Shown here: positions 24,434 to 38,715 of the stretch, one piece after another
Numbering within the stretch: position 1 is the first letter of the stretch
How the letters are laid out: the number at the start of each line of letters is the position of its first letter
NCBI GenBank assembly: GCA_030679145.1
Contig: JAUXTU010000069.1
Span: 1-47,066, forward strand
Source of the DNA: Bacteroidota bacterium
GTDB lineage: Bacteria; Bacteroidota; Ignavibacteria; UBA10030; UBA8401
Length of the DNA: 47,066 nucleotides
Direction of reading: 5' to 3'
Made by a program: the position numbers and the translations under genes
Notes under the pieces: generated by a model
What the model was told of the DNA's origin: nothing
Database searches by the model: none
The model's input: the letters and a program-made list of their open reading frames with translations, nothing else

Positions 24434-25522
24434 ATGAGTTCTTTAAATGTTGAAAATATCTTGAATGCACTCCGCGCAGTTCGTGATCCGGATCTTAATC
24501 GTGATATCGTCTCGCTGAATTTCATTAAAGATATTAAGATCGAAGGGAAGGATGTTAGTTTCTCCATTGAACTTACTACGCCCGCTTGTCCCGTAAAGGA
24601 TGAAATGAAAGCTCAGGCAGAAAATGTTGTTCGGCAAAATATTCCTGAAATTGGAAAACTGAATGTGACAATGACGGCAATTGTTTCAAAGCGTTCAAAT
24701 ATGCAGGCAATGCCGATACTCACCGGTGCTAAAAATACTATTGCTGTTGCCAGCGGTAAAGGTGGCGTAGGAAAATCTACTGTTGCCGTAAATCTTGCAG
24801 TTTCTCTTGCGCGTCAAGGTGCAACTGTTGGTTTGATAGATTGCGATATCTATGGTCCCAGCATTCCGTTGATGTTCAATATCAACGAAAAGCCGCAGAT
24901 GCATAATCAAAAATTAGTACCGTTAGAAAAATACGGTGTAAAAGTGATGTCGATCGGATTCTTAATTGATTCCACTCAGGCAGTTATTTGGCGCGGTCCA
25001 ATGGCGAGTGGTGCCGTAAAACAATTTATGACCGATGTAGAATGGGGTGAACTTGATTATCTTGTGTTTGATCTTCCTCCCGGTACAGGTGATATTCAGT
25101 TGACGCTTGTACAACAAATACCAATAACCGGTGCAGTGATCGTTACGACGCCGCAAGAAATGTCGTTAACGGATGCACGAAGAGGAATGGCAATGTTCAA
25201 CAAAGTGAATGTTCCAATTCTTGGTGTTATCGAAAATATGAGCTATTTCATAAGTTCAAATGGTGAACGGGAAAATATTTTTGATACCGGCGGCGGAAAA
25301 AAAGTTGCTGAACAATTTAAGGTTCCCTTCCTTGGCGAGATTCCTATTTACACGAAGATTAGAATCGGCAGTGATTCGGGCAGACCAATTACCGATTCGG
25401 AACCGGATAGTGAACCGGCGAAAATTTTTCAAACAATATCAAAAAATCTTGCAGCTCAGATCAGTATCAATAATCTCTCAAAGCAATCTGCACCGATTGA
25501 AATATCATTAGGAACAAATTAA
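24434..25522 (+). CDS. mrp: Mrp/NBP35-type iron-sulfur carrier ATPase lacking the usual CxxC
   Basis: P-loop protein of the Mrp/ApbC/NBP35 family, which carries iron-sulfur clusters to target enzymes. Residues 1-85 form a MIP18 (DUF59) domain, with D-L-N-R-D-I-V near 18 and T-T-P-A-C-P-V near 50. The ATPase domain starts with deviant Walker A G-K-G-G-V-G-K-S-T at about 108-116. The product is 362 residues long. Most bacterial homologues have a C-x-x-C cluster-binding motif after E-N-M-S; here the stretch reads E-N-M-S-Y-F-I-S-S-N-G-E (from about 267), with no cysteine. Cluster binding may therefore differ. An Nfu scaffold protein is encoded next, which supports a role in cluster handling. A strong terminator hairpin follows. 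Confidence 0.88.
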   Translation: MSSLNVENILNALRAVRDPDLNRDIVSLNFIKDIKIEGKDVSFSIELTTPACPVKDEMKAQAENVVRQNIPEIGKLNVTMTAIVSKRSNMQAMPILTGAKNTIAVASGKGGVGKSTVAVNLAVSLARQGATVGLIDCDIYGPSIPLMFNINEKPQMHNQKLVPLEKYGVKVMSIGFLIDSTQAVIWRGPMASGAVKQFMTDVEWGELDYLVFDLPPGTGDIQLTLVQQIPITGAVIVTTPQEMSLTDARRGMAMFNKVNVPILGVIENMSYFISSNGERENIFDTGGGKKVAEQFKVPFLGEIPIYTKIRIGSDSGRPITDSEPDSEPAKIFQTISKNLAAQISINNLSKQSAPIEISLGTN

Positions 25523-25531
25523 TTTAATACG

Positions 25532-25562
25532 GATGGAGTCCACCGATATGGTGGACTCCATC
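25532..25562 (+). terminator. Strong hairpin between mrp and nfu
   Basis: GATGGAGTCCACC (25532-25544) pairs exactly with GGTGGACTCCATC (25550-25562), with a five-base loop and TTTTAATT behind it. This is an intrinsic terminator for mrp. It ends 11 bases before the nfu ATG, so it could instead act as an attenuator. Confidence 0.82.
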
Positions 25563-25573
25563 TTTTAATTAAT

Positions 25574-25807
25574 ATGACACTTACAGAAAAAGTTCAGCAA
25601 TCGCTTAATTCCGTCCGTCCATATCTGCAGGCAGATGGAGGAGATGTTGAACTTGTGCGAATAACCGATGATGGATTTGTGGAAGTGAAGCTCATCGGTG
25701 CTTGTGTCTATTGTCCGATGTCGAGAATGACACTTCGCGCAGGTGTTGAACGGAGATTACTAAAAGATGTTCCTGAGATTCGAAGAGTGGAACAGGTGTT
25801 ATTTTAG
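25574..25807 (+). CDS. Nfu-type iron-sulfur scaffold protein
   Basis: A 77-residue single-domain NifU C-terminal (Nfu) protein that assembles and hands over iron-sulfur clusters. The domain core L-Q-A-D-G-G-D-V-E-L (residues 18-27) and the cluster-binding C-V-Y-C-P-M-S (residues 43-49, C-x-x-C) are present. The length matches stand-alone Nfu domains. It starts only 11 bases after the terminator hairpin of mrp and has no Shine-Dalgarno site. Expression therefore needs readthrough of that hairpin or a promoter that I cannot identify. Confidence 0.9.
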   Translation: MTLTEKVQQSLNSVRPYLQADGGDVELVRITDDGFVEVKLIGACVYCPMSRMTLRAGVERRLLKDVPEIRRVEQVLF

Positions 25808-26131
25808 AGTTCAAGATTATTCCAAATCTTAAACTATAGGTTCAAGACTTATGCCGCGATTATTTTCACGGCATTGTTATTTTAAATTTGACAACTATTC
25901 AGTACATTTAACAGATTTATTATAAAACATTAATGAAAAACGTTTCAATAGATTTCACTGACTGCTAAAATAAATAATCTCTAAAGTTATGTTCCTCCCA
26001 ATTCAGATAGTCTTGTCTTAATCTGGAAATTTTCTTTAAAAGATAACTTGCTATTATAGTAAACTACTTTAAACTTACCGCCAAGTAATACTCTACTTCT
26101 ACAACAAGTTATCCCCGATGCAGGAGAAAAT
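25808..26131. other. Intergenic region at the left edge of the cargo island
   Basis: About 324 AT-rich bases without a credible gene. A weak hairpin ATGCCG/CGGCAT (25851-25856 with 25869-25874) followed by a T-rich stretch may end nfu transcription. A TTGACA at 25888-25893 has no matching -10 element at 16-18 bases. The region ends in the Shine-Dalgarno site AGGAG (26122-26126) of the next gene. No tRNA or insertion element is visible. Confidence 0.5.
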
Positions 26132-27658
26132 ATGACGAGAATGGATACTAAACCACAAAGTATAAGTATCAGACATATATTTATCTTTCAATTATTTTTA
26201 TTTGTGTTAACATTTGTGCAACACACAAATGCTCAGCAACTTCTTTGGCAGCGTGTGTTTAACCCAGGTGGGCAGGATGAAGCAAGGGGTGTTGCCGTAG
26301 ATTATGAAGGTAATATTATCGTTACTGGAACTACAGACCCTACCGCAATAGACTATAAAAATCTTGCAGATTTTTTTACTGTGAAGTACAACTCACAGGG
26401 AGACACCATTTGGACTCGTCGATTTAATGTCTCATCATATGATCATGCAAGAGGTGTTGCTGTTGATAAAGCAGGAAATATCATCGTTGTAGGTGAAACA
26501 ACAACTGATACAGCTACTAACGGTGATATACAGGTGGTAAAATATAATCCAAATGGTGATACACTCTGGACTCGAAGATACGGCAAACCGAAAGAACGAA
26601 ATTCGACAGGAGGGGTCGCTATAGATTCGCGTGGCAGTATTATTATTACTGGATTTGAAAACTCAACAGAATACGGTTTTTATAATTATGTAACTGTGAA
26701 GTACGATTCAAACGGAACATTACTTTGGACACGTTGGTATATTGGCTTTGGGGATGATCTTGCTGAAGGTATTGCGGTGGATGATTCTGACAACGTTGTT
26801 GTTACGGGAAAGTCAGAAGGTGAAATGGGATGGGACTGGCTGACAATAAAATATTCTCCTGGAGGTGATACAGTTTGGACGAGGAGATATGATTTGTCGA
26901 CAGACGATAAAGCGCATAGCGTTACTATAGACAAAGATGGAAACATTATCATCTGTGGAGAATTGGGTAATATTGCTTCTCCAAACGATTATTACGGTGC
27001 GGTGGTGAAATACAACCGTCAAGGTGATACACTTTGGACAAAAAAATTCAATAAATTGAAAAACGAAGGGGTAACGAAATTCGCAAGTGTTATTACTAAT
27101 GATTATGGAGACATTTTTCTAACAGGTACATATTTTCAAAGGGATATAGTTGGGTATATTTCATATAATTACTACGTGGCTAAAAGCGATTCATCCGGTG
27201 ATACTCTTTGGACACGCTTATATAATTATCATAATGACGACGAACCGAGCGGCATAACGGTAGACAAATCAGGGAATGTTATAGTTACAGGTACAGCAAA
27301 TCACAGTGAAGTATCTTTTGCCGGAAATTTTCTAACAATAAAGTTAAATGATATTTCAACCGATGTAAATCTTCATTATGAGAACCATCAGCCAGTAAAT
27401 TTCTCGCTCAAGCAAAATTATCCGAATCCGTTTAATCCTTCGACAATGATCAGTTATCAATTACCAATGAGCAGTAGAATGACTTTGAAAGTATACGATA
27501 TACTTGGAAAAGAAATCGCAACACTTGTAGATGAAAAAAAGGAGGTGGGAACTTACATAGTGTTGTGGAATGCAAGTATGTTTACCAGCGGTGTTTATAT
27601 TGCACGATTAACTTCGGAGAATTTTTCTGCATCAATTAAACTTTTGCTTGTACGATGA
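26132..27658 (+). CDS. Secreted SBBP-repeat beta-propeller protein with T9SS sorting domain
   Basis: A 508-residue exported protein. After the signal peptide (ending T-N-A-Q-Q near residue 36) come seven repeats of about 50 residues. Each has a G-V-A-V-D-x-x-G-N-I-I-V-T-G strand pair and a V-K-Y-x-x-x-G-D-T-L-W-T-R close (residues about 50-410). Seven units suggest a complete seven-bladed propeller of the SBBP type. The last 85 residues are a sorting domain with N-Y-P-N-P-F-N-P, L-K-V-Y-D-I-L-G and a basic end, so this is predicted T9SS cargo. AGGAG lies five bases before the ATG. No catalytic motif was seen; a binding or adhesion role is inferred. Confidence 0.85.
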   Translation: MTRMDTKPQSISIRHIFIFQLFLFVLTFVQHTNAQQLLWQRVFNPGGQDEARGVAVDYEGNIIVTGTTDPTAIDYKNLADFFTVKYNSQGDTIWTRRFNVSSYDHARGVAVDKAGNIIVVGETTTDTATNGDIQVVKYNPNGDTLWTRRYGKPKERNSTGGVAIDSRGSIIITGFENSTEYGFYNYVTVKYDSNGTLLWTRWYIGFGDDLAEGIAVDDSDNVVVTGKSEGEMGWDWLTIKYSPGGDTVWTRRYDLSTDDKAHSVTIDKDGNIIICGELGNIASPNDYYGAVVKYNRQGDTLWTKKFNKLKNEGVTKFASVITNDYGDIFLTGTYFQRDIVGYISYNYYVAKSDSSGDTLWTRLYNYHNDDEPSGITVDKSGNVIVTGTANHSEVSFAGNFLTIKLNDISTDVNLHYENHQPVNFSLKQNYPNPFNPSTMISYQLPMSSRMTLKVYDILGKEIATLVDEKKEVGTYIVLWNASMFTSGVYIARLTSENFSASIKLLLVR

Positions 27659-27729
27659 AACGAAAGAAGTTGTAAAGTTAAGGTAGGAACTACACGCACG
27701 GTTAATTTTTTATTAGATGGGAGTAAATT

Positions 27730-30700
27730 ATGAAATCGCTTATACAAATATTTGTAATTATTCTTTTTGTTGTAACGAATTCAACAGCACAGTGGGTAAA
27801 CTTAAAGGGTTCAAAAGAAAAATCTGTCACGATTACACTTCGTGGAGATACTCCAAGTGGAACAATTATCGAGTTCACACCTGTGGGATACTATTTGAAA
27901 ATAGTGAATCTTGAAGGAAAAACTTATTCTGTCATATCTATTCCCAAAGCAGTGCCGTTTCTTGAAAAAGGGTATCCTGAACTTCCAAGAGTTAGTAGAA
28001 GTGTTATGGTTTCTGATGAAGCTAAAATGAAAATTGAGATTCTTGAAGTCGATTGCGAGACCACGTACGTTGCACCTATTTTATCATCAAAAGGAAATAT
28101 TCATGGCTCGATTGATCCAGAAAGTGTGCCTTACACTTTTAGCGATGTGTATAAAACAGATAAATGGTGGCCCGAACAAGTTGTTGACCTTTCTGATCCG
28201 TTTATATTACGGGATATCCGCGGCATTACTGTTCGATTTAATCCTTTTCGATACAATGCAGTAAGGGGACAACTTATTACTTGCAAACAACTTATTGTTC
28301 GCGTCTATGCTGATGGAGTTGATGACAAAAATATAAAAACGAATAGGAAAGGAGTTATTAATCGAGACTTCTCTGAAATTTACGAACGATTCTTCTTGAA
28401 TTTCCACAAAAAAACGAATAATGCTTTAGGTAAAACAACTTATACAGGTATTAATGAAACAGGAAGAATGCTTATTATTGCTGCCGATGATTTCTACAAT
28501 AATGTAATACCGTTAAGGGATTGGAGAACGAGAAAAGGACTTCAAACAATATTGGTGAAATGTTCCAATGTCGGTACAACATTTAATTCAGTATTCACAT
28601 ACATTCAAAATATGTATCTTAGTGAAAGTAGTGTTACATATATTCTTTTAGTTGGCGATGGAAATACTCCCGATGTACCTATGAAGAGTGTTCCATTTGG
28701 GGGTACTGATTATCATGATCCAAAAGATCCCTTATATTCTTTGCTTGAATTTGAGATCCCTTACCCTCCACACACACCTGATCCCTATCCAGATGCATAC
28801 ATATCTAGAATTTCCGCAGAGAACACCGACCAAGTTGATAATCAGGTGAGGCGAATTCTGAAGTACGAAACAAATCCACCAACAGGTAACTGGTTTCAAC
28901 AAGCAAGCGGTATTGCATCGCAACAGTACGGTGATACGACGGACTGTAACTTATTAAGAGATGATTTAATCGCTTATGGATATACGTCTGTCGATAAGCT
29001 CTATAATATCGGAAGCGCACAACCTATTTCGGATGCAATTAATGCTGGAAGGAGTTTTGTGAATTTTGATGGACATGGTTCGGGTGCATCATGGTCGTTT
29101 TCACAACCTTATGTCAATCCTCTCTTTTCCATTGCAAACGTTCAAAATCTTGTAAACACAAATATGCTACCGTTTGTTTTTTCAGTAGGTTGCGAAGTTG
29201 GAGATTTTGCAGATATGAGTACTTGTTTTGCAGAGGCATGGCTTCGAAGCGGAACAAAAGACAATCCTACTGGCGCAATTGGGTTTTACGGTTCATCAGT
29301 TCTTCAAGGTGGCACAATACCAAAAATTGCACAAACCGAAGCAGTAGATATTCTCGTTGCCGATGCAAAAGTAACCATCGGTGGGCTTTGTTATAACGCT
29401 TCGTGTAAAATGATTGAAAGTCAGCAACCAAACGAAATTGCTGAGTTCAAAGGATGGAATATTTTCGGAGATGCAGCGACACAGTTATGGACAAAGGTAC
29501 CAACAAATTTTACCTCTGTCAGTGTCACAGATAATGGAAGTTCAATTACCGTCAATGTCGGCGTTGCTGGTTCAACAATTTGTGTTTCTAGTGGAAACAA
29601 CGGAGCGACATATTGGGATAGACAAGACAACGTAAGTAGTTCTACATTCACTACGTCTGTTCGTCCCCTTTACGTTACCGTTACCAAGCATAATTATATT
29701 CCATATACCGCTGTTACTGGCGGTATGTTTGCGAGTAATGAGTTCTGGTTTGGGAATATGAAAGTTCTTGGGAACATAACATTAAATCGTAATTATAGTC
29801 TTACTATTCCCGCAAACACAAATATTTCTTTTGCAAACGGAACCTCGCTTTATGTTTATGGTGTATTAAACGTCAACGGCACTTCATCTTCACCCGTAAC
29901 ATTTACATCCATTTCAGGTAATTCTCCGGGTAGCTGGGGTTCAATTATCTTAAGCGGCACAGGTACAGAAGGTTCAAATTTAAATTACATTACAATGCAA
30001 TATGGAACTGATTTGCAATTCCTAAACAGTGCAACTGGTACAATTCAGAATTCTATATTGCAATATAACACACGCGGCGTTTATATTTACAACTCGCAGC
30101 CTGATATTATTAATAATTCAATTTATGAAGTTCAACAAGACGGTATTCTGTGTAACGCAGCAGGTTATTCTCCCCTCGTAAAAGATAATACTATTACAAA
30201 AACATCTGGGAATAGTTACTATCAAAACTATAGCGGTATTAACATTGGAGGTTCCACCACATACGGTTATTTACCTCACAATGATATCAAAGGATTTTAT
30301 TATGGAATGTACATTGGCGGTGGACCAACTGTTCACTTCGTAGACAGAGCAATCAATCAACCGTATCCAAACAATCGTATAATGTTTTGTCTATTTGGAA
30401 TTACAGCGGGATGGGGATCCTACGTTAGCAATGTATATTACAGCGATTACAACAGCATTTACAGTAATGCGTATTACGATCTTTATGCTTATAATTCTTC
30501 AAATATTTCTCTGGGATATAATTACTACGGAGGAGGAAATCCGACAACCTATACTTATAATTCATCATGGATAAATTACTACACGCCATTGACGTGGAAT
30601 CCGTGGGAAGAATATTTTAGGCAAGCACCATTAAATTTACTATCAGATACTCAAGAATTTTCAGCATTGACAACGCCCGCACGGGTCAGTAATACTGAAA

Positions 30701-31509
30701 CACCTCAGTTTGTTTCTTCGGATGACGAAACAGGTTTTGAAAAAGGACTAGAACTTGAACGACAAAAAGATTACACAGGCGCAATCGCACATTATACACT
30801 CATGCTCAAAGCAGGAAAAATATCGAGACAACTATTGGCCGAATTAGCTCATGTTGGATCAGAATATGGGAGTGTGGACGTTGTGAGTTATTTTGAGACA
30901 ATGAAAAACTCAAAATCTGAATATCAAGCGTATTGTATGCAATTACTCGCAGGATTATATATGCGTCGAGGAGAGAAAGAAAAGAGTGCCGCTGTTTATG
31001 ATGAAATCATTGCAAATTTTTCTAATACCCATGATGAAAAAATGGCTCAACTTCAAAAGTTCTATTATATACTCCATGTTGAGAATGATATAGAAACAGC
31101 TCAGAATCTTTTGAATATAATTGCAACAAGATATGCGGAGGATGATGTCGAGCGTGATGTTGTTCGCGCGCAGTCTATACTGAGCTCTTCGTATGTGTCT
31201 CCCAAAGAAAGCAAAGATAGTTCAAACGCCACAAGTAAGACGCTTAACAATTTTGTTCTTTTCCAAAACTACCCGAACCCCTTTAATCCTATAACAACGA
31301 TTTCTTATAAAGTTCCGCAAGCGGGTAAGGTATCGTTGAAAGTTTATGATGGTTTAGGTAGAGAAGTAATTGTGTTGGTAAACGGACAACAATCTGAAGG
31401 TGCTTATAATACACAATTTGATGGAACAACATTAGCAAGTGGTATTTATTTCTATCGTTTGCATGTAGGCAGTTATATTGAAACAAAAAAGTTAGTTTTA
31501 ATGAAGTAA
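27730..31509 (+). CDS. Secreted C25 cysteine protease with beta-helix, helical repeats and T9SS sorting domain
   Basis: A 1259-residue exported protease. A signal peptide (to T-A-Q near residue 21) and an N-terminal prodomain-like region precede the gingipain-type C25 domain. Catalytic His 449 lies in D-G-H-G-S and Cys 488 in S-V-G-C-E-V-G-D-F. From about 660 to 960 the sequence is a right-handed beta-helix rich in Asn, Tyr and Gly. Residues 1000-1140 are charged TPR-like helices (E-K-G-L-E-L-E-R-Q-K-D-Y-T-G-A-I). The sorting domain (N-Y-P-N-P-F-N-P) closes the protein at L-V-L-M-K. A GGGAG site precedes the ATG. Unlike PorU it lies among cargo genes, so it is probably an exported protease rather than the sortase. 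The downstream S8 protease carries the same C-terminal architecture. Confidence 0.87.
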   Translation: MKSLIQIFVIILFVVTNSTAQWVNLKGSKEKSVTITLRGDTPSGTIIEFTPVGYYLKIVNLEGKTYSVISIPKAVPFLEKGYPELPRVSRSVMVSDEAKMKIEILEVDCETTYVAPILSSKGNIHGSIDPESVPYTFSDVYKTDKWWPEQVVDLSDPFILRDIRGITVRFNPFRYNAVRGQLITCKQLIVRVYADGVDDKNIKTNRKGVINRDFSEIYERFFLNFHKKTNNALGKTTYTGINETGRMLIIAADDFYNNVIPLRDWRTRKGLQTILVKCSNVGTTFNSVFTYIQNMYLSESSVTYILLVGDGNTPDVPMKSVPFGGTDYHDPKDPLYSLLEFEIPYPPHTPDPYPDAYISRISAENTDQVDNQVRRILKYETNPPTGNWFQQASGIASQQYGDTTDCNLLRDDLIAYGYTSVDKLYNIGSAQPISDAINAGRSFVNFDGHGSGASWSFSQPYVNPLFSIANVQNLVNTNMLPFVFSVGCEVGDFADMSTCFAEAWLRSGTKDNPTGAIGFYGSSVLQGGTIPKIAQTEAVDILVADAKVTIGGLCYNASCKMIESQQPNEIAEFKGWNIFGDAATQLWTKVPTNFTSVSVTDNGSSITVNVGVAGSTICVSSGNNGATYWDRQDNVSSSTFTTSVRPLYVTVTKHNYIPYTAVTGGMFASNEFWFGNMKVLGNITLNRNYSLTIPANTNISFANGTSLYVYGVLNVNGTSSSPVTFTSISGNSPGSWGSIILSGTGTEGSNLNYITMQYGTDLQFLNSATGTIQNSILQYNTRGVYIYNSQPDIINNSIYEVQQDGILCNAAGYSPLVKDNTITKTSGNSYYQNYSGINIGGSTTYGYLPHNDIKGFYYGMYIGGGPTVHFVDRAINQPYPNNRIMFCLFGITAGWGSYVSNVYYSDYNSIYSNAYYDLYAYNSSNISLGYNYYGGGNPTTYTYNSSWINYYTPLTWNPWEEYFRQAPLNLLSDTQEFSALTTPARVSNTETPQFVSSDDETGFEKGLELERQKDYTGAIAHYTLMLKAGKISRQLLAELAHVGSEYGSVDVVSYFETMKNSKSEYQAYCMQLLAGLYMRRGEKEKSAAVYDEIIANFSNTHDEKMAQLQKFYYILHVENDIETAQNLLNIIATRYAEDDVERDVVRAQSILSSSYVSPKESKDSSNATSKTLNNFVLFQNYPNPFNPITTISYKVPQAGKVSLKVYDGLGREVIVLVNGQQSEGAYNTQFDGTTLASGIYFYRLHVGSYIETKKLVLMK

Positions 31510-31524
31510 ATATTTTTCTATAAC

Positions 31525-31559
31525 AAAATCCCTGAAATCTGAAAGGTTTCAGGGATTTT
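31525..31559 (+). terminator. Terminator of the C25 protease gene
   Basis: AAAATCCCTGAAA (31525-31537) pairs exactly with TTTCAGGGATTTT (31547-31559), with a T-rich tail. It is a diverged copy of the terminator after the S8 gene (37011-37043), with paired changes in the stem. Confidence 0.88.
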
Positions 31560-31566
31560 ATATTTT

Positions 31567-31647
31567 TTACTGCTTCAACTGTACTTCCCGAACATTCCCA
31601 TCTTTAATTTGCATGATTTTCCCCTGCGCTTTTCTCACCAGATCGTA
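31567..31647 (-). pseudogene. Truncated 3' end of a second ftsE copy
   Basis: On the minus strand these 81 bases encode the last 26 residues of FtsE plus TAA, running [10 protein letters not shown] at the start and V-R-E-V-Q-L-K-Q at the end. The protein sequence is identical to the end of the intact ftsE at 37052-37720. The DNA differs at eight positions, all silent (for example TAC/TAT, AGA/CGA, GCG/GCA, CAG/CAA). Similarity stops abruptly after 31647. The terminator and spacing beside it are also shared with the intact locus. It is a relic of a complete ftsE from a related genome or an old duplicate. Confidence 0.88.
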
Positions 31648-32372
31648 GAGTGCACAATTTTAGTATGAATCTAAAAAATGGATTTCTATTTTTTAATGTT
31701 CCTCTAAAACAAAAGATAGATTTATCCGATTTAGTTGTTCCGCACTATTTACAAAAAATCTTTTTCTAAAACCTTCCAAATTTCTCTAAAAAGAGCATAT
31801 CAAAAAAATAGTTAAACTATTTTTATTTTCTTTATTCCGATTTTCAATTTTCACGGATATAAGTACATGAGGGGAAGTCCGCGAAAGAAGTATTGTATCC
31901 AATTGTACGATTTTATGTGAGGTAAGTACAATTGTCACTTGTTCTTGTTGTGAGTGGTTTACTCCTTTACACAATAAACGGATTTACCAAGTGTGAGTCT
32001 TATTGATAAAAAATTCCATCATAGAGATTTTTTGAAAATACAAATGAAATCACATCTTGATAATTAGATTTCAAATGGTGTTATCAAAAAATAAGTAATA
32101 AAAAATGTTGCAAAAAAAATCAATTTGCAATTGAAGGGGCGTTGTTTTTTGTTTCATAAATTTGAGATTAAAATATTTTCTCTCTTTTAACAATTCATTT
32201 TTATTGTTTTCGCAAATGTAAAAATGATAAATGTGAAATTGAATAAAAAATGATGTTTTTGTTAAGGCGCGATTTTTGCATCTTAATTATTATTGCCACC
32301 GTTAAATAATTTTGAATGAAAAAGTTCAAGATGTTTTAGAATTGATGGAACAATTAACCATCAATTAATAGT
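31648..32372. other. AT-rich region without recognisable genes
   Basis: About 725 bases with runs of A and T and only short open frames. I see an inverted repeat CAATTGTAC/GTACAATTG at about 31900-31932 and a TTGCAAA...TTTGCAA pair near 32107-32130. No tRNA, insertion element end or promoter stands out. It begins exactly where the ftsE relic ends and may hold decayed sequence from the recombination event. Confidence 0.5.
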
Positions 32373-32387
32373 TTGAAAGTTAAACGT

Positions 32388-33398
32388 ATGAACAAAATAA
32401 TTTTTAGTTCCTTAATCGCCATTTTTCTTATTGGTCTTTCATGCGACAAAGATAATCCGTCCGATGGTGGCAAATCTCCGTGTGGAGGAATTGATCCGCT
32501 CATAATTCCTGAATCTCCATACAGCAACCCAATCTGGCATCCGAGCGGAAAATTTATAGGCTTCAACCATACACCATTAGTAAATATTACGTATCCCTAC
32601 GGCGAGGGATGTTGGGGCGAACAGCATTTTAGTTATGACTCAACAGGGTTTTGGTTGATTGATTCTGACGGAACAAATATGCATAGAATATTTCCCCACA
32701 CACTACAAAACCCAGTATGGTCACCCGACGGAGAGTGGATTGCATATGTTTCAGGCGCGCAAATTTTCAAAATGAAATTTACTGGAACAACATTTGACAC
32801 GGCAACAATTGTGCAACTTACTAACGGAGGCCGTAATTTCTTTCCGGCGTGGAGTCCTGATGGAGAGTGGATTGCGTATAACAGATCAATATGTGAAGGA
32901 CCGAGCACCTGTGGAATTTGGATGATGTCGGCATCGGGTCAAAATCAAAGGTTCTTGGCTGCGTATGGAAATTATCCCGATTGGCATCGTTATGCAACAA
33001 AAGTCCTTTACCGAACTCGTGCAATCACAAGAACAGGACAACCTATAGGCGATTCGCTCTGGCAATTCGATATCAGTACCAATTCAAGAGGTTTGCTCAC
33101 GGTTCTCAGTGGTATAAATTTGGACAACCGCTATCCTAAATACTCCCCAAATGGAACAAAGATAGCATTTTGGTCAAGTGGTAACTTGTGGATAATGGAT
33201 AGTACTGGTAGCAATCTTCTACAACTTACAACTACGGGAGTTGATGTCGACTTCGGACTTCCTTTTAGTTGGTCACCTGTGGGAGATAAAATTATTTATA
33301 CACGATATCAATCAACCGATTGGACAATGAAGAACGGTGTTCTTTGGACGATTGATGTCAATTCTAAAATAGAAAAGCAGTTTACCTTCAATCCTTGA
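32388..33398 (+). CDS. PD40/TolB-like propeller lipoprotein
   Basis: A lipoprotein of about 336 residues. The signal ends in a lipobox L-I-G-L-S-C, with the lipidated Cys at residue 19 counted from the ATG at 32388 (an in-frame ATG at 32373 is also possible). At least five PD40 (WD40-like) repeats follow, such as P-V-W-S-P-D-G-E-W-I-A-Y, P-A-W-S-P-D-G-E-W-I-A-Y and P-K-Y-S-P-N-G-T-K-I-A-F. They build an open or complete beta-propeller like the one in TolB. There is no sorting domain, so export would use the lipoprotein route. The binding partner is unknown. It precedes the S8 protease by 193 bases of structured leader. Confidence 0.82.
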   Translation: MNKIIFSSLIAIFLIGLSCDKDNPSDGGKSPCGGIDPLIIPESPYSNPIWHPSGKFIGFNHTPLVNITYPYGEGCWGEQHFSYDSTGFWLIDSDGTNMHRIFPHTLQNPVWSPDGEWIAYVSGAQIFKMKFTGTTFDTATIVQLTNGGRNFFPAWSPDGEWIAYNRSICEGPSTCGIWMMSASGQNQRFLAAYGNYPDWHRYATKVLYRTRAITRTGQPIGDSLWQFDISTNSRGLLTVLSGINLDNRYPKYSPNGTKIAFWSSGNLWIMDSTGSNLLQLTTTGVDVDFGLPFSWSPVGDKIIYTRYQSTDWTMKNGVLWTIDVNSKIEKQFTFNP

Positions 33399-33446
33399 TA
33401 TAGCAGATCATTGAAGAAAAGGAGATGATAGTTATGAAAAAATAAA

Positions 33447-33523
33447 AGCCCCCGTGGGCAACATCCTTAAATATTCCCCCACGAAGGAGAATTATGTTCA
33501 GGACAATTGTTCCTGCGAGGGCT
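33447..33523 (+). promoter_or_regulatory. Structured leader around the start of a small ORF
   Basis: AGCCC (33447-33451) can pair with GGGCT (33519-33523), enclosing a CGTGGG/CCCACG hairpin (33453-33458 with 33478-33483) and a short AGGA/TCCT hairpin (33500-33514). The AAGGAG ribosome site (33484-33489) of the leader ORF sits directly at the 3' foot of the CGTGGG hairpin. This geometry could gate ribosome access. I recognise no described RNA family. Confidence 0.4.
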
Positions 33524-33595
33524 TATTGTTTCTTTAAAGATACAATCAAATTCACTCAAACACAAAAATACTTTACAGAAAGGAAAATACTATGA
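33494..33595 (+). CDS. 33-codon leader ORF coupled to the S8 protease
   Basis: ATG at 33494 follows AAGGAG (33484-33489) by four bases and opens 33 codons that end TGA at 33593-33595. The stop overlaps the ATG of the S8 protease gene as ATGA. The peptide starts M-F-R-T-I-V-P-A-R-A-Y-C-F-F and is basic (end T-E-R-K-I-L), with no recognised domain. The strong ribosome site and the exact coupling suggest real translation, either as a small protein or as a leader peptide that controls the protease. It could still be chance; homologues were not tested. Confidence 0.45.
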   Translation: MFRTIVPARAYCFFKDTIKFTQTQKYFTERKIL

Positions 33596-36500
33596 AACAG
33601 AGAAAGTTTTCTTTGAAAAAATTATGGACTATTTCTGTGTTGTTTTTATCCGTTTTACCAATTACAACTTTAGCACAGAACGATCCGACAAAAGAAATTC
33701 TTGTCTATTTTACTTCTGGGGTTGAGCGAGCAGCTAAAGGGCAACTAACGGCCCGAACAGCGTCATCAGCAGCAAAAACAATTCTTGCACATTTCAAAAT
33801 AGGCGAGGACAAAATAACATCAGCTTTTCCGGATTTTGATGAAACTGATACACTAAAGAAAACACCTGAAGGTAGAACGATTGGTATGCCAAACATGGCA
33901 AAGATATTTAGAATTCGAGTTCCTGATGGCGTTGTAAGAAAAAGTGTCATTGACTCATTAAAGAAACTTTCGAATGTTCTTTTTGCTGAACCAAACGGCA
34001 TTGCGGCACCTCACAGCATTCCGGACGATCAATACTTTTCATACCAATATTCACTTCAAGCTGGGGGCGGCACCGGAAAAATTTCTGCACCAGAAGCTTG
34101 GGATATTTACACGGGATCATCGAGTAGTATTATCGGGATTATTGATTATGGTGTTGATGGTACACATCCTGATTTAAGTGGTAAGGTATCGGGAGATGCG
34201 CCAAATACCGTCTATCATGGCACTCATGTTGCTGGAATTGCTGCGGCAAAAACAAACAACAATGCAACAGGTATAAGTGGTGTTGACTGGAATGCACAAT
34301 TACTATCAAAGAATATCGAATATTCTGACGATGTAACAACATACCAACAGATTGTAGATGCTGTCAACTACAGTTCTAATGTTAATGTTTTAAACAATAG
34401 TTGGGGACTTATTTATCCAGACCATTCTGGCGGACGCTATTCAACCACTGTAAAATTGGCGTTTGTTTACGCATATAAAATGAATCGTACCGCTGTCGTT
34501 GCTATGGGGAACTCGAATGGGAGTCAAACGCAATACCCCGCAGGTTTTGGACAAGGAATCATTGCAATAGGGTCAACCGATGCTGACGATGTAGTTGCTG
34601 GATCTTCTAATATCGGGAACCATATTGACGTTACTGCACCCGGAGTTTCAATATTATCGACCTATCGCAACGGGAATTTTTCGGACGATGCAAATTACCA
34701 TACTGACGGTGGTACTTCCATGGCAGCTCCACATGTGTCCGGTATCGCATCGTTGTTGAAAGGATATAACTCAAATCTTTACAACGACGACATCGAAAAT
34801 ATCATTCGACTTTCCGCAGACAAAGTTGAAGGGATGAACGGGCAAGATTTTACTACCGAGTACGGTTATGGTCGAGTTAATGCTCGCAAAGCGTTAAACT
34901 TGCTTCGTGCCCCTGTTGCTTTAACTCAAGCAACTGCGTATGGAGGAACAGATTATTATAAAGGACCTGCTACCCAAATGGCAATATATGGTGTCAGTGG
35001 TTTACCAACTGCTGTATATATTGTTTATAGGCACGAAGTACGAAAAAATGTCACTTTCCCAACAAGCAGTTTTCGCAAAATTTGGGGACGTGGTGCGGCA
35101 ACCTTTGGTTGGGCAGATAACGGTAACGTAAATTTTGGAATGGGCTGGTGTGAAGCGGTTCCAGGAACGGTTACTTCTTCTTCTGCAACCTTGCGCACCA
35201 ATGTCTATGAAGTGTACAATACTTCAGGACAATGGATTGGCTGGTATCCAACAACACCTGGAAATGTGACGTTTGCATATTCTGTATTAGGTGTTCCGCA
35301 GATAATTTCGACAAATAGCACATTAGATGGCAATTTTGCTTTTGATGATTATGTGACAGTGAATAGTGGTGCAACTTTGACTATTACCCCGGGTTCAGTT
35401 ATTTCGTTTGCAAGTGGAAAGTCATTGATTGTACAAGGTGTACTGAACGCCAATGGCACATCGTCTCAACCAATAACATTCACCTCGCAGTCTGGTACAA
35501 CTCCCGGCAGTTGGGAGGGAATCACATTTTACGAATCTGGTGCGTCTGGCTCAACACTAAATCATGTAAAAGTTCAATATGGTAATGACATATATGCGAT
35601 TAATGTTCCAAGTTTTACCGTGAATAATTCAACCATTGAAAATATGGTAAACGGTGTAAATGCATATGGTTCTAATGGATGGGTAATGAATAGTACAATT
35701 ACCAATCCGCGAGATCATGGTATAGTTTCAAATATATCAACACTATCTTGCTACCATAATACAATTACAAAAACAGATTTTTCCGGCGCAGGAATTTTAT
35801 ACACTGCCGGTGCAAGTGATTATATTTGGGACAACGATATTTCAGGTTTTAACTGGGGAATTGGTGCAATATGGGGATCAAGTGCATATTGCGGGCATCC
35901 TTCAAATACCGGAAATAACAATTCTATAACCAACTGTTTAATTGGTGCAAATGTTTATCAAAGCGGATATGCAATGTTTGGAGAATATATCGAGTATGAC
36001 GATATATATAATCCATATTATGCAGGAAATACAATAGACAATAATATAAGTTACGATGCACAAGTGTACACAAACAGCACTGTGTTTGCGCAAGGAACGA
36101 ATTGGGGAGGTGGTAGCCCTACTTATTCGGTTTATGATAATTCGATTTTTTATTATGACCTTGGAGGTAACAATAGAGTTTTGGCGAATGGTAAACTAAA
36201 TATGGTTGAAGAAGCAGCCACGTTCGGAAACGAACAATCACAGCAAAACTCAATATCACTAAAGACGCTATCTTCAACTTCTGTTATGTCGAAAGATGAT
36301 CTTGGGATTCTTCCTTATATCAAATTAATGAAAACATACAATGATACAACAGCAGAATCCATATTGAATACATTTTTATCCTTAGACGAAAAAGCACCTC
36401 AAGTCACGAAATTACTTCTTGCGAACATCTATTTGAAACGTGATGAGATAGAAAAGGCAAAACAAGTAAATTCCGACTTATCCAAAGCAAATCCCAATAG

Positions 36501-36996
36501 TGCACTTGGCTGCAGAGCAGAGTTGAATAATTTTTACATTGCTCTTTATAAAGAAAGAAATATCAACGTTGCAAGTGCCATGTTAGATGAAATTGCTGTC
36601 AACGCAAAGTACATTGAGCCTATTGAACTTGCTTTGGCTATGCATGATTTAAAAACAAGCAAAGTAGTAAATGAAAGTATGGGTAACAGTTCGTTTAAAA
36701 AACACACAGAGCAAATTAATGCAATATCTCCAGACAAATTTGAATTGTTACAAAACTATCCCAACCCATTCAATCCGACAACGACTATTGCATTTTCACT
36801 TCCGCAAGAGGGTAATGTTACCCTGAAAGTATTTGATGCCCTCGGAAGAGAAGTCGCAATATTGGTGAATAGTTTTAAATCGGCAGGGCATTATAATGTG
36901 GAATTTAATGCTCTAGCATTTGCAAGCGGTGTATATTTCTATCGTTTACAAGCAGGGAGTAATATTGCCACAAAGAAGTTAGTTTTGATGAAGTAA
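33592..36996 (+). CDS. Secreted S8 subtilisin-like protease with beta-helix, helical repeats and T9SS sorting domain
   Basis: An 1134-residue exported serine protease. After the signal peptide (ending T-L-A-Q near 29) comes a propeptide-like region, then the S8 domain. The catalytic residues are Asp 185 (I-I-D-Y-G-V-D-G), His 209 (Y-H-G-T-H-V-A-G) and Ser 376 (G-G-T-S-M-A-A-P-H), with Asn in L-N-N-S-W-G. A beta-helix occupies about 590-870 and opens with G-V-L-N-A-N-G-T-S-S, matching the C25 protease's G-V-L-N-V-N-G-T-S-S. Charged helical repeats and a sorting domain (N-Y-P-N-P-F-N-P, ending L-V-L-M-K) follow. AAAGGA lies seven bases before the ATG, which overlaps the leader ORF stop. It is predicted T9SS cargo; the substrate is unknown. 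Confidence 0.9.
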   Translation: MKQRKFSLKKLWTISVLFLSVLPITTLAQNDPTKEILVYFTSGVERAAKGQLTARTASSAAKTILAHFKIGEDKITSAFPDFDETDTLKKTPEGRTIGMPNMAKIFRIRVPDGVVRKSVIDSLKKLSNVLFAEPNGIAAPHSIPDDQYFSYQYSLQAGGGTGKISAPEAWDIYTGSSSSIIGIIDYGVDGTHPDLSGKVSGDAPNTVYHGTHVAGIAAAKTNNNATGISGVDWNAQLLSKNIEYSDDVTTYQQIVDAVNYSSNVNVLNNSWGLIYPDHSGGRYSTTVKLAFVYAYKMNRTAVVAMGNSNGSQTQYPAGFGQGIIAIGSTDADDVVAGSSNIGNHIDVTAPGVSILSTYRNGNFSDDANYHTDGGTSMAAPHVSGIASLLKGYNSNLYNDDIENIIRLSADKVEGMNGQDFTTEYGYGRVNARKALNLLRAPVALTQATAYGGTDYYKGPATQMAIYGVSGLPTAVYIVYRHEVRKNVTFPTSSFRKIWGRGAATFGWADNGNVNFGMGWCEAVPGTVTSSSATLRTNVYEVYNTSGQWIGWYPTTPGNVTFAYSVLGVPQIISTNSTLDGNFAFDDYVTVNSGATLTITPGSVISFASGKSLIVQGVLNANGTSSQPITFTSQSGTTPGSWEGITFYESGASGSTLNHVKVQYGNDIYAINVPSFTVNNSTIENMVNGVNAYGSNGWVMNSTITNPRDHGIVSNISTLSCYHNTITKTDFSGAGILYTAGASDYIWDNDISGFNWGIGAIWGSSAYCGHPSNTGNNNSITNCLIGANVYQSGYAMFGEYIEYDDIYNPYYAGNTIDNNISYDAQVYTNSTVFAQGTNWGGGSPTYSVYDNSIFYYDLGGNNRVLANGKLNMVEEAATFGNEQSQQNSISLKTLSSTSVMSKDDLGILPYIKLMKTYNDTTAESILNTFLSLDEKAPQVTKLLLANIYLKRDEIEKAKQVNSDLSKANPNSALGCRAELNNFYIALYKERNINVASAMLDEIAVNAKYIEPIELALAMHDLKTSKVVNESMGNSSFKKHTEQINAISPDKFELLQNYPNPFNPTTTIAFSLPQEGNVTLKVFDALGREVAILVNSFKSAGHYNVEFNALAFASGVYFYRLQAGSNIATKKLVLMK

Positions 36997-37010
36997 TTAT
37001 TCTTCACTTT

Positions 37011-37043
37011 AAATCCCCGAAGTCTAAAAGGCTTCGGGGATTT
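37011..37043. terminator. Bidirectional terminator between the S8 gene and ftsE
   Basis: AAATCCCCGAAG (37011-37022) pairs exactly with CTTCGGGGATTT (37032-37043), flanked by T-rich sequence on the right and A-rich on the left. It lies between converging genes and can serve both. Confidence 0.88.
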
Positions 37044-37051
37044 TTATTTTT

Positions 37052-37720
37052 TTACTGCTTCAATTGTACTTCCCGAACATTCCCATCTTTGATTTGCATA
37101 ATTTTTCCCTGTGCCTTTCGCACCAGATCATAATTATGCGTTGTCATCAATACAGCAGTCCCTCTTGCATTGATATCAAGAAGAAGTTTAAGAATATCAT
37201 GAGATGTGCCCGGATCTAAATTTCCTGTCGGCTCGTCTGCTAAAATCAAAAATGGCTCGTTTACCAATGCTCTAGCGATACAAACCCGTTGTTGTTCGCC
37301 CCCTGAAAGCTGATGCGGCATTGCATTTCGTTTATGACTTAATCCGACCTGTGTTAAAACAGTAATAACTTTTTTCTTTATCTCATCGGATCCGGCTCCG
37401 GTTACATGAAGTGCGAACGCAACATTATCGAAAACATTTCTATCATCCAGGAGTTTAAAATCTTGAAAGATAATTCCAAGCTTTCTTCTTAAGAATGGTA
37501 TTTGTGAAGATGTGATTGTTTTTGAAGAAAATTCACCGACCGAAACTACACCGCTCGTAGGAAGCAAATCCATATACAATAACCGCAGCAGACTGCTTTT
37601 GCCGGCACCGGATTCGCCAACCAATGAAACAAATTCTCCCGGCTCAATAACAAAATTGATGTTGTTGAGAACGGTATGATGGTTAAATGCGACGCGAATA
37701 TCGTCTAATTGAACAAGCAT
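37052..37720 (-). CDS. ftsE: Cell-division ABC transporter ATPase FtsE
   Basis: ATPase of the FtsEX complex, which controls cell-wall hydrolases at the division site. The 222-residue product has Walker A G-E-S-G-A-G-K-S (residues 35-42), the signature L-S-G-G-E (138-142) and Walker B I-L-A-D-E-P (about 159-164), followed by [13 protein letters not shown] near 85 is typical of FtsE rather than LolD. Its ATG shares one base with the pdxA stop (TAATG). No ftsX lies next to it in the window; downstream it meets the cargo island. A diverged copy of its last 26 codons is present at 31567-31647. Confidence 0.9.
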
Positions 37721-38715
37721 TATTTTTTCCGTTGTTCTATGATTGATACAGCAAGTTGAATTGCCGAGATCATGCTCCCGGGGTTTGCAATTTTCTTCCC
37801 TGCAATATCAAATGCGGTTCCGTGATCGGGCGACGTGCGAATGATCTTTAATCCTGCAGAGAAATTCACTCCTTCGTCAAATCCTGTCATCTTTAATGGA
37901 ATGAGTCCTTGATCGTGATACATTGCAAGAATCGCATCATAGTTCTTATATGCTTTCGATGCGAAAAATCCATCGGCAGGAAATGGACCGGATGCGTCGA
38001 TTCCTTTTTCTTTTGCTTTTTTGATTGCGGGAATGATGACATCATTTTCTTCGGTTCCAATTGCACCATTTTCACCCGCGTGAGGATTCAATCCAAGGAT
38101 AGCAATTGAAGGAGTTTTGATGCCAAGATCATTCTTTAATGAGGAATTTACGGTTTCAAGTTTTTCAATGATACGATCCACAAATAAATTCTCAGATACT
38201 TTCTTTAATGGAATATGTACGGTCGCTAATGCAACTCTCATACTCTTTGCAAGCAGCATCATCGTTACTCGTTCTGATCGAGTGAGCATTGCAAGCATTT
38301 CTGTTTGTCCGGGGAAATTATATCCTGCAAGGTGCAGTGCTTCTTTTGAAACCGGTGCTGTTACCATTGCATCAACTTCTTTTGCAAGACATAATTTTAG
38401 AGCGTGTTCAATTGCCATTCCTGCACAGACACCGGAATCGGGAGAAATTTTTCCAAGCTGAATACTTTTAGATGTTGCCGGGTGTACGGTCAGGACGGGA
38501 ACAGCACCATTTTTGATCTTTGCTGATAGTTTATCAACTGCAATCAATTCAATATTAAGCTTGAATAGCTTTACGTAATACTGAAAAATATCAAACGAAC
38601 CGATAAGAACAGGTTGTATATTTTTTTTGATCTTCGGTGAGACGATGCTTTTTAAAGTAACTTCCGGACCAATTCCGTTAAAATCTCCGATTGTGATAGC
38701 AATAGTTGGTTTCAT
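37720..38715 (-). CDS. pdxA: 4-hydroxythreonine-4-phosphate dehydrogenase
   Basis: Oxidises 4-phosphohydroxy-L-threonine in the DXP-dependent vitamin B6 pathway. The 331-residue product begins with I-T-I-G-D-F-N-G-I-G-P-E (about residues 6-17). It contains T-A-P-V-S-K-E near 140, L-N-P-H-A-G-E-N-G-A-I-G near 210 with a metal-binding His, and M-Y-H-D-Q-G-L-I-P near 265. The R-T-S-P-D-H-G-T-A-F-D-I-A-G block lies near 293. All match PdxA. The start overlaps the stop of the GWxTD gene by four bases (ATGA). No other pdx gene is in the window. Confidence 0.95.
   Translation of the reverse strand: MKPTIAITIGDFNGIGPEVTLKSIVSPKIKKNIQPVLIGSFDIFQYYVKLFKLNIELIAVDKLSAKIKNGAVPVLTVHPATSKSIQLGKISPDSGVCAGMAIEHALKLCLAKEVDAMVTAPVSKEALHLAGYNFPGQTEMLAMLTRSERVTMMLLAKSMRVALATVHIPLKKVSENLFVDRIIEKLETVNSSLKNDLGIKTPSIAILGLNPHAGENGAIGTEENDVIIPAIKKAKEKGIDASGPFPADGFFASKAYKNYDAILAMYHDQGLIPLKMTGFDEGVNFSAGLKIIRTSPDHGTAFDIAGKKIANPGSMISAIQLAVSIIEQRKK

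Follow-up and report, generated by a model that had tools for sequence, protein, structure and literature searches.

Some genomic islands, for example at tRNA genes, duplicate the 3′ end of the gene they target. A different route by which foreign DNA becomes joined to a chromosome is homology-facilitated illegitimate recombination, which the excerpts available of the relevant reports describe for competent bacteria, in Acinetobacter, Streptococcus pneumoniae and Pseudomonas stutzeri (PMC2884548), and in E. coli by conjugation (PMC3240628). The same route has been proposed for the stacking of type VI modules in Vibrio, in a report that also cites C-terminal displacement in rhs loci (PMC5361080, in the part available).

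We analyzed a locus that shares features with each of these. It lies in the window, by which we mean the whole stretch of DNA analyzed (47,066 nucleotides), and consists of two two-gene cassettes between nifU and ftsE, separated by an 81-bp relic of a second ftsE. The features are as follows, in order.

24434-25522, plus strand: Mrp/ApbC-type ATPase, the conserved left neighbor (Pfam ParA (NUBPL), 344 bits; Mrp-nifU-ftsE order in relatives)
25574-25807, plus strand: nifU, a 77-aa NifU-domain protein at the left border of the variable gap (NCBIfam NifU/NfuA)
26132-27658, plus strand: SBBP beta-propeller protein carrying a type IX sorting domain, the upstream gene of cassette A (Pfam SBBP, Por_Secre_tail)
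27730-31509, plus strand: C25 peptidase carrying a beta-helix, a TPR-like part and a type IX sorting domain, the downstream gene of cassette A (Pfam Peptidase_C25, Propeptide_C25, Por_Secre_tail)
31520-31566, plus strand: predicted terminator hairpin of the C25 gene, homologous to that of the S8 gene (folding -20.6 kcal/mol)
31567-31647, minus strand: ftsE relic, the last 26 codons and stop, probably from the ftsE of another lineage (alignment, genome search, silent differences, species-level distance)
31648-31719, no strand: right side of the joint, without ftsE similarity (sequence comparison)
31720-31881, plus strand: dispersed leader with a promoter-like motif (similar stretches in this genome, G001 and G003)
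32388-33398, plus strand: PD40 beta-propeller protein with a lipoprotein-like signal (by eye), first gene of cassette B (Pfam PD40)
33592-36996, plus strand: S8 subtilase carrying a beta-helix, a TPR-like part and a type IX sorting domain, the downstream gene of cassette B (Pfam Peptidase_S8, Por_Secre_tail)
37010-37051, plus strand: predicted terminator hairpin of the S8 gene (folding -23.2 kcal/mol)
37052-37720, minus strand: ftsE, intact, 222 aa, right border of the variable gap (NCBIfam FtsE equivalog)

Like homology-facilitated illegitimate recombination, as far as the excerpts describe it, the locus suggests a one-step joining of foreign DNA with one non-homologous joint and alternative segments between conserved flanks, and the two ftsE versions involved are diverged (pS 0.50, pN 0 between the relic and the intact gene). 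Unlike the described cases, the process is here deduced from one product, and the homologous anchor and the donor are conjectural. The resemblance to type VI effector-immunity displacement in Vibrio cholerae, in the available part of that report (PMC5361080), lies in variable genes for secreted proteins at a fixed site with conserved neighbors, where new modules are added, a remnant is kept and the same recombination route is proposed. In contrast to type VI and rhs displacement, however, the remnant is the tail of a housekeeping flank gene rather than an orphan immunity gene or toxin tip, and the cargo is of type IX and comes as whole two-gene cassettes, which are not known to have an immunity function. 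No orphan immunity genes stand behind the modules, the block holding the SBBP, C25, PD40 and S8 genes only. As in islands that duplicate a 3′ end, there is a direct repeat of the end of a gene. Unlike in such islands, no recombinase was recognized, the repeat reaches into a terminator and a sorting domain, and other occupied sites lack a repeat. Judged by titles and the openings of abstracts, no ftsE relic beside type IX cargo was found described, which is no proof of absence.

The ftsE relic and its silent differences

The sequence-only reading had held that the last 26 codons of ftsE recur at 31567-31647, directly after the terminator of the C25 gene, with eight of 81 bases differing and every change silent. 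Alignment bore this out: the minus-strand translation is identical to the end of FtsE, the stop of the relic adjoins the C25 terminator hairpin, and all eight differences, seven of them transitions, are silent. The relic and the ftsE tail lie in one genome, in the same orientation and 5.5 kb apart; when the draft genome (3.83 Mb, 123 contigs) was searched with the relic, its own ftsE (E 1e-27) was the only strong match besides the relic itself, the one after it having E 1.0. A coding function for the relic was set aside, an in-frame stop lying five codons upstream with no preceding ATG (read by eye).

The alignment of the region with the end of ftsE, suggested in the same reading, revealed a repeat longer than had been stated. 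It runs from 31247-31647 against 36734-37132 and takes in, besides the ftsE tail, the terminator hairpin and a less well matched type IX sorting domain, with 72% identity between 31247-31518 and 36734-37005 and 87% between 31526-31647 and 37011-37132. By segment, the aligned columns agree at 73/81 positions in the ftsE tail, 44/60 in the spacer and terminator, 60/72 in the last 24 codons of the sorting domain, and 71/112 and 61/83 in its earlier parts. The ftsE similarity stops at 31647. Among the matches listed for 22 family genomes (query 31240-31720), with at most 29 candidates scored per genome, the ftsE part was seen at ftsE loci alone, a single one per genome except in this one.

Depending on the share of transitions, the probability that a random change here is silent is 0.20-0.33, and all eight of eight random changes would be silent by chance with a probability of 2e-6 to 1.5e-4. 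The argument that a dead fragment would have gained amino-acid changes thus holds. The relic and the intact gene differ at 8/78 coding bases (pS 8.0/16.0 = 0.50, pN 0), which is close to what separates G005 and G007, two species of one genus, in their ftsE tails (9/78, pS 9.0/14.3 = 0.63, pN 0; whole genes, pS 0.47 and pN 0.013). This match to two species of a genus agrees with the further proposal that the differences arose in functional genes of different strains or species. From the silent-only pattern and the species-like distance, the two tails most likely parted as functional orthologs. The relic is not a recent copy of the intact gene, for which there are too many silent differences and zero amino-acid changes.

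The relic also appears too well preserved to have decayed ever since the split. Neutral evolution over that time should have left 15-34 changes on its branch, where 1-5 are seen; in this crude Poisson estimate around a point estimate (P 0.004 down to 5e-14), neutral decay since duplication is rejected. Polarized by eye against G005 and G007, three of the eight changes fall on the branch of the intact gene, one on that of the relic, and four are ambiguous. None of the 62 non-synonymous sites has changed, which sets a 95% upper limit of about 3/62 = 0.05 per site on neutral change after detachment, whereas the divergence between relic and ftsE is about 0.41 per lineage (from dS 0.82). By this rough comparison, detachment of the relic would fall within roughly the final eighth of the period over which the tails have diverged. 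Given a species-level difference that is silent throughout, it is best read as an orthologous ftsE tail, recently severed.

In a maximum likelihood tree of 15 ftsE genes and the relic, the relic and the intact gene of this genome were joined with 97% support in the whole-gene alignment and with 46% on the 78 tail columns alone, while G005 and G007 were mutual nearest relatives (99%). The relic is nearest to the intact gene (8/78), followed by G005 and G007 with 16/78 and three non-synonymous differences each. A tree had been suggested earlier, with the provision that grouping of the relic with this genome's own gene as a recent copy would speak against a transfer. The grouping did appear, but the distance is that between species and not that of a recent copy. 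Judged from these comparisons, the relic is the nearest known relative of the intact gene, yet as distant as another species. No possible donor genome was found, which is unsurprising since the genomes searched cover one per species and about half of the species.

Beside the two ftsE ends, the terminator stems differ in two base pairs, each altered at both positions (T-A to C-G and A-T to G-C), as would be expected of terminators kept functional. Given these paired changes, and a terminator, spacing and ftsE tail that repeat together, both ends look maintained in their lineages. The sorting domains tell a less clear story. Those of the C25 and S8 proteins differ with a pS of 0.57, but over the last 24 codons pS is 0.45, near the 0.50 of the ftsE tails, which fits a single split of one block made up of sorting domain, terminator and ftsE end. 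However, the S8 sorting domain is equally close to that of a gene on contig C87 of the same genome (72.0%) and to that of C25 (71.6%), and outside the sorting domain the C-terminal half of C25 is closer to a protein of G010 (47%, 464 bits) than to that of S8 (pieces of 129 and 96 bits). It is thus not clear that the sorting domains went through the same history as the ftsE tails, and a common descent of the entire C-terminal halves of C25 and S8 from one neighbor of ftsE is weakened by the G010 and C87-gene similarities.

Similarity to the homologs in G026 fades near residue 690 in C25 and near residue 568 in S8. Beyond these points, C25 and S8 show 41, 36, 20 and 31% identity by segment and then 62% in the sorting domain. 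As a separate observation, the C25 proteases of G026 (L163, G026:C125, 9053-12895) and of the window (27730-31509) have a common protease half and unrelated C-terminal halves, a module exchange near residue 690 between C25 proteases of two families.

A variable gap and two cassettes

At the right border of the gap, FtsE scores 267.1 bits against the NCBIfam equivalog cut-off of 264.85; at the left border, all NCBIfam NifU/NfuA matches of nifU fall under the full-length cut-offs. FtsE was detected at E<=1e-45 in 17/22 family genomes and not in the other five, four of which (all except G008) were searched again, with only G003 yielding a fragment, at a contig end. The gap is empty in 11/17 genomes with FtsE, nifU facing ftsE with 9-96 bases between the aligned ends, and filled in 3/17 by type IX cargo-like genes that point towards ftsE and differ each time. 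In the window, four genes occupy 11.2 kb. In G015, other genes stand beside ftsE with no nifU within 1.5 kb, and the contigs of G002 and G011 stop 0 and 496 bases beyond ftsE.

Two filled gaps in relatives may be described in their own right: that of G007 holds one DUF3160 gene (L148, 2176-4761) and that of G017 five sorting-domain genes (L149, 547-7321). Por_Secre_tail exceeds the Pfam cut-off in all five G017 genes and falls just under it in the G007 gene (25.7 vs 27 bits). Neither insert contains a second piece of ftsE or nifU. Since the gap is empty in G005 and filled in its nearest relative G007, the filling has changed between sister species elsewhere too.

In the window, the SBBP and C25 genes lie between nifU and the relic, and the PD40 and S8 genes between the relic and ftsE. 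Three of the four (SBBP, C25 and S8) carry Por_Secre_tail above the Pfam cut-off, and thus the C-terminal sorting domain by which type IX cargo is recognized; Pfam found none in PD40. The 33420-33540 stretch between PD40 and S8 opens on a tiny ATGAAAAAATAA frame, after which comes a G+C-rich sequence resembling an inverted repeat (AAAAGCCC...GGGCTTATT).

Both cassettes are mobile and have homologs in other genomes of the order, at places other than beside ftsE. The C25 protease half (residues 1-677) was found at E<=1e-40 in 6/98 genomes of the order, this one included, and in none of the 21 other family genomes (22 searched). Its nearest relatives, in G026 (67% identity) and G039 (55%), belong to other families, and in both an SBBP homolog lies directly before C25 (47% and 41%). 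The C25 reading frame of G039 is split and on a small contig. FtsE of this genome is 62% and 61% identical to that of G026 and G039. The G026 C25 is thus closer than the housekeeping FtsE, which together with its absence from the other family members suggests that C25 spread by transfer. The S8 protease half was likewise found in 6/98 genomes, this one included (E<=1e-70), nearest in G011 (67%) and G026 (62%); a PD40 homolog directly precedes S8 in G026, and the 3′ part of one precedes it in G011. In G026 neither cassette is on the ftsE contig, and in G039 C25 is on a different contig from ftsE. The search for relatives in which C25 adjoins ftsE, called for by the sequence-only reading, came back empty: among the 98 genomes of the order, neither cassette was found beside ftsE elsewhere, so that neither parent version of the site has been seen.

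The joint and its origin

The relic ends in a joint without visible homology: the similarity of the copies ends at 31647, and nothing ftsE-like follows. The joint stands 72 bases before a leader of about 160 bases, versions of which precede genes for exported and other proteins in this genome, G001 and G003. Lying upstream of PD40, the leader indicates that the right-hand half brings its own upstream region. Its core at 31836-31861 (plus strand), TCCGATTT-N9-ACGGATATA, has 8 exact copies in the genome vs 0 in a reversed control, and we take it to be a putative promoter of an alternative-sigma (ECF) regulon. Some copies of the core precede genes for type IX cargo or lipoprotein-like products (on contigs C6, C14 and C87, and here PD40); others precede a response-regulator-like ORF (C75) and a regulator-like pair (C106), neither protein of which was named by Pfam. 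GC content ranges from 0.33 to 0.43 per kb across the block with no sharp step at the joint, and is of no help in separating resident from incoming DNA. A search of 25500-37800 against Rfam gave no match above the gathering score, and its five weak matches were all far below.

We consider it likely that a single recombination, between versions of the nifU-ftsE site about as diverged as those of two sister species, left the relic as its scar. Version A would have read nifU ... SBBP-C25-terminator-ftsE and version B ... PD40-S8-terminator-ftsE. The joint would have formed inside the ftsE of version A, 26 codons before the stop, tying it without visible homology to DNA upstream of the version B PD40. 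The product would hold both cassettes in a row, with the A ftsE reduced to its tail and the B ftsE whole. A likely route would be homology-facilitated illegitimate recombination, with pairing in a common flank on one side and end joining on the other; the anchor would be Mrp/nifU if the A half arrived and ftsE/pdxA if the B half arrived. Such a scar is supported by the variable gap (11/17 empty, 3/17 cargo-like) and by the patchy distribution of the two-gene cassettes (6/98 each). Counting against it are the shortness of the tail, with 46% support on the tail alone, sorting domains that do not clearly share its history, and the unseen parent versions.

A scar of this kind accommodates either direction of arrival. 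The sequence-only reading had the C25 gene come in with the ftsE tail of a donor in which it also lay beside ftsE. The anatomy, in which sorting domain, terminator and ftsE tail recur as a unit, does imply that C25 adjoined ftsE in the source lineage, but it does not imply the direction. In the reverse of that reading, which is quite possible, the C25 half and the relic are resident, the relic being the genome's former ftsE, and the PD40-S8 block arrived with the working ftsE. All of the anatomy fits equally well, and at the only four polarizable silent sites the relic has the G005 and G007 state at three and the intact gene at one, numbers too small to favor either direction. Nothing specific opposes it, the C25 half being as patchy as the S8 half. 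We thus regard the two directions as about even.

It is improbable that the assembler fused contigs of two co-occurring species at 31648. The genome is a draft of 123 contigs, and two species with differing versions of the site would give exactly these halves. However, the assembler would have had no common sequence to cross, as the similarity ends at 31647 and the leader begins only at 31720, and a crossing at 31647 would run on into ftsE; there is no N in 27000-38500, and estimated contamination is 0.86%. On the same two coordinates, a misassembly driven by repeats was set aside.

A site-specific integrative element that carried a replacement ftsE 3′ end, and so duplicated its attachment site, is very unlikely. 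Such islands resemble this block in the direct repeat of a gene 3′ end that flanks it, with silent differences, but apart from PD40 and S8, the only ORFs of 80 aa or more between the repeats are two on the minus strand that lie within these genes, and no recombinase was recognized there (Pfam on PD40 and S8). The repeat moreover runs through the terminator and coding sequence, beyond an attachment region, and the occupied sites of G007 and G017 have no second copy of ftsE or nifU; attachment-site duplication was set aside on these grounds. Hardly credible is a tandem duplication of sorting domain, terminator and ftsE tail within one genome, followed by decay of the tail: two copies in the same orientation 5.5 kb apart and homologous C-terminal halves of C25 and S8 suit it, but not eight of eight silent differences, no indel in 81 bases, and 1-5 changes on the relic where neutral decay predicts 15-34.

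Implications for type IX cargo

The recombination scar is ordinary in kind, a recombination between relatives at a variable site. What is unusual is the evidence, a silent-only fossil of a housekeeping gene. We also entertain, as a doubtful extension, that in this family the nifU-ftsE gap is an exchange site for type IX cargo, where recombination swaps two-gene protease cassettes between species, and at which the sorting domain, terminator and ftsE end serve as the right-hand anchor and the relic marks a missed exchange that stacked two cassettes. If true, the sorting domain would be both a secretion signal and a recombination handle, and the latter role would explain the diversification of type IX cargo repertoires.

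A scar between two site versions predicts sister species with one or the other cassette beside ftsE. An 81-bp dead fragment that carries the codon history of another lineage would date and order a recombination in bacteria known from draft genomes, and the scar would show how several secreted-protease genes can come to stand in a row at a single site. Overall, the comparison suggests that this row of secreted-protease genes was stitched together from two diverged versions of one chromosomal site.
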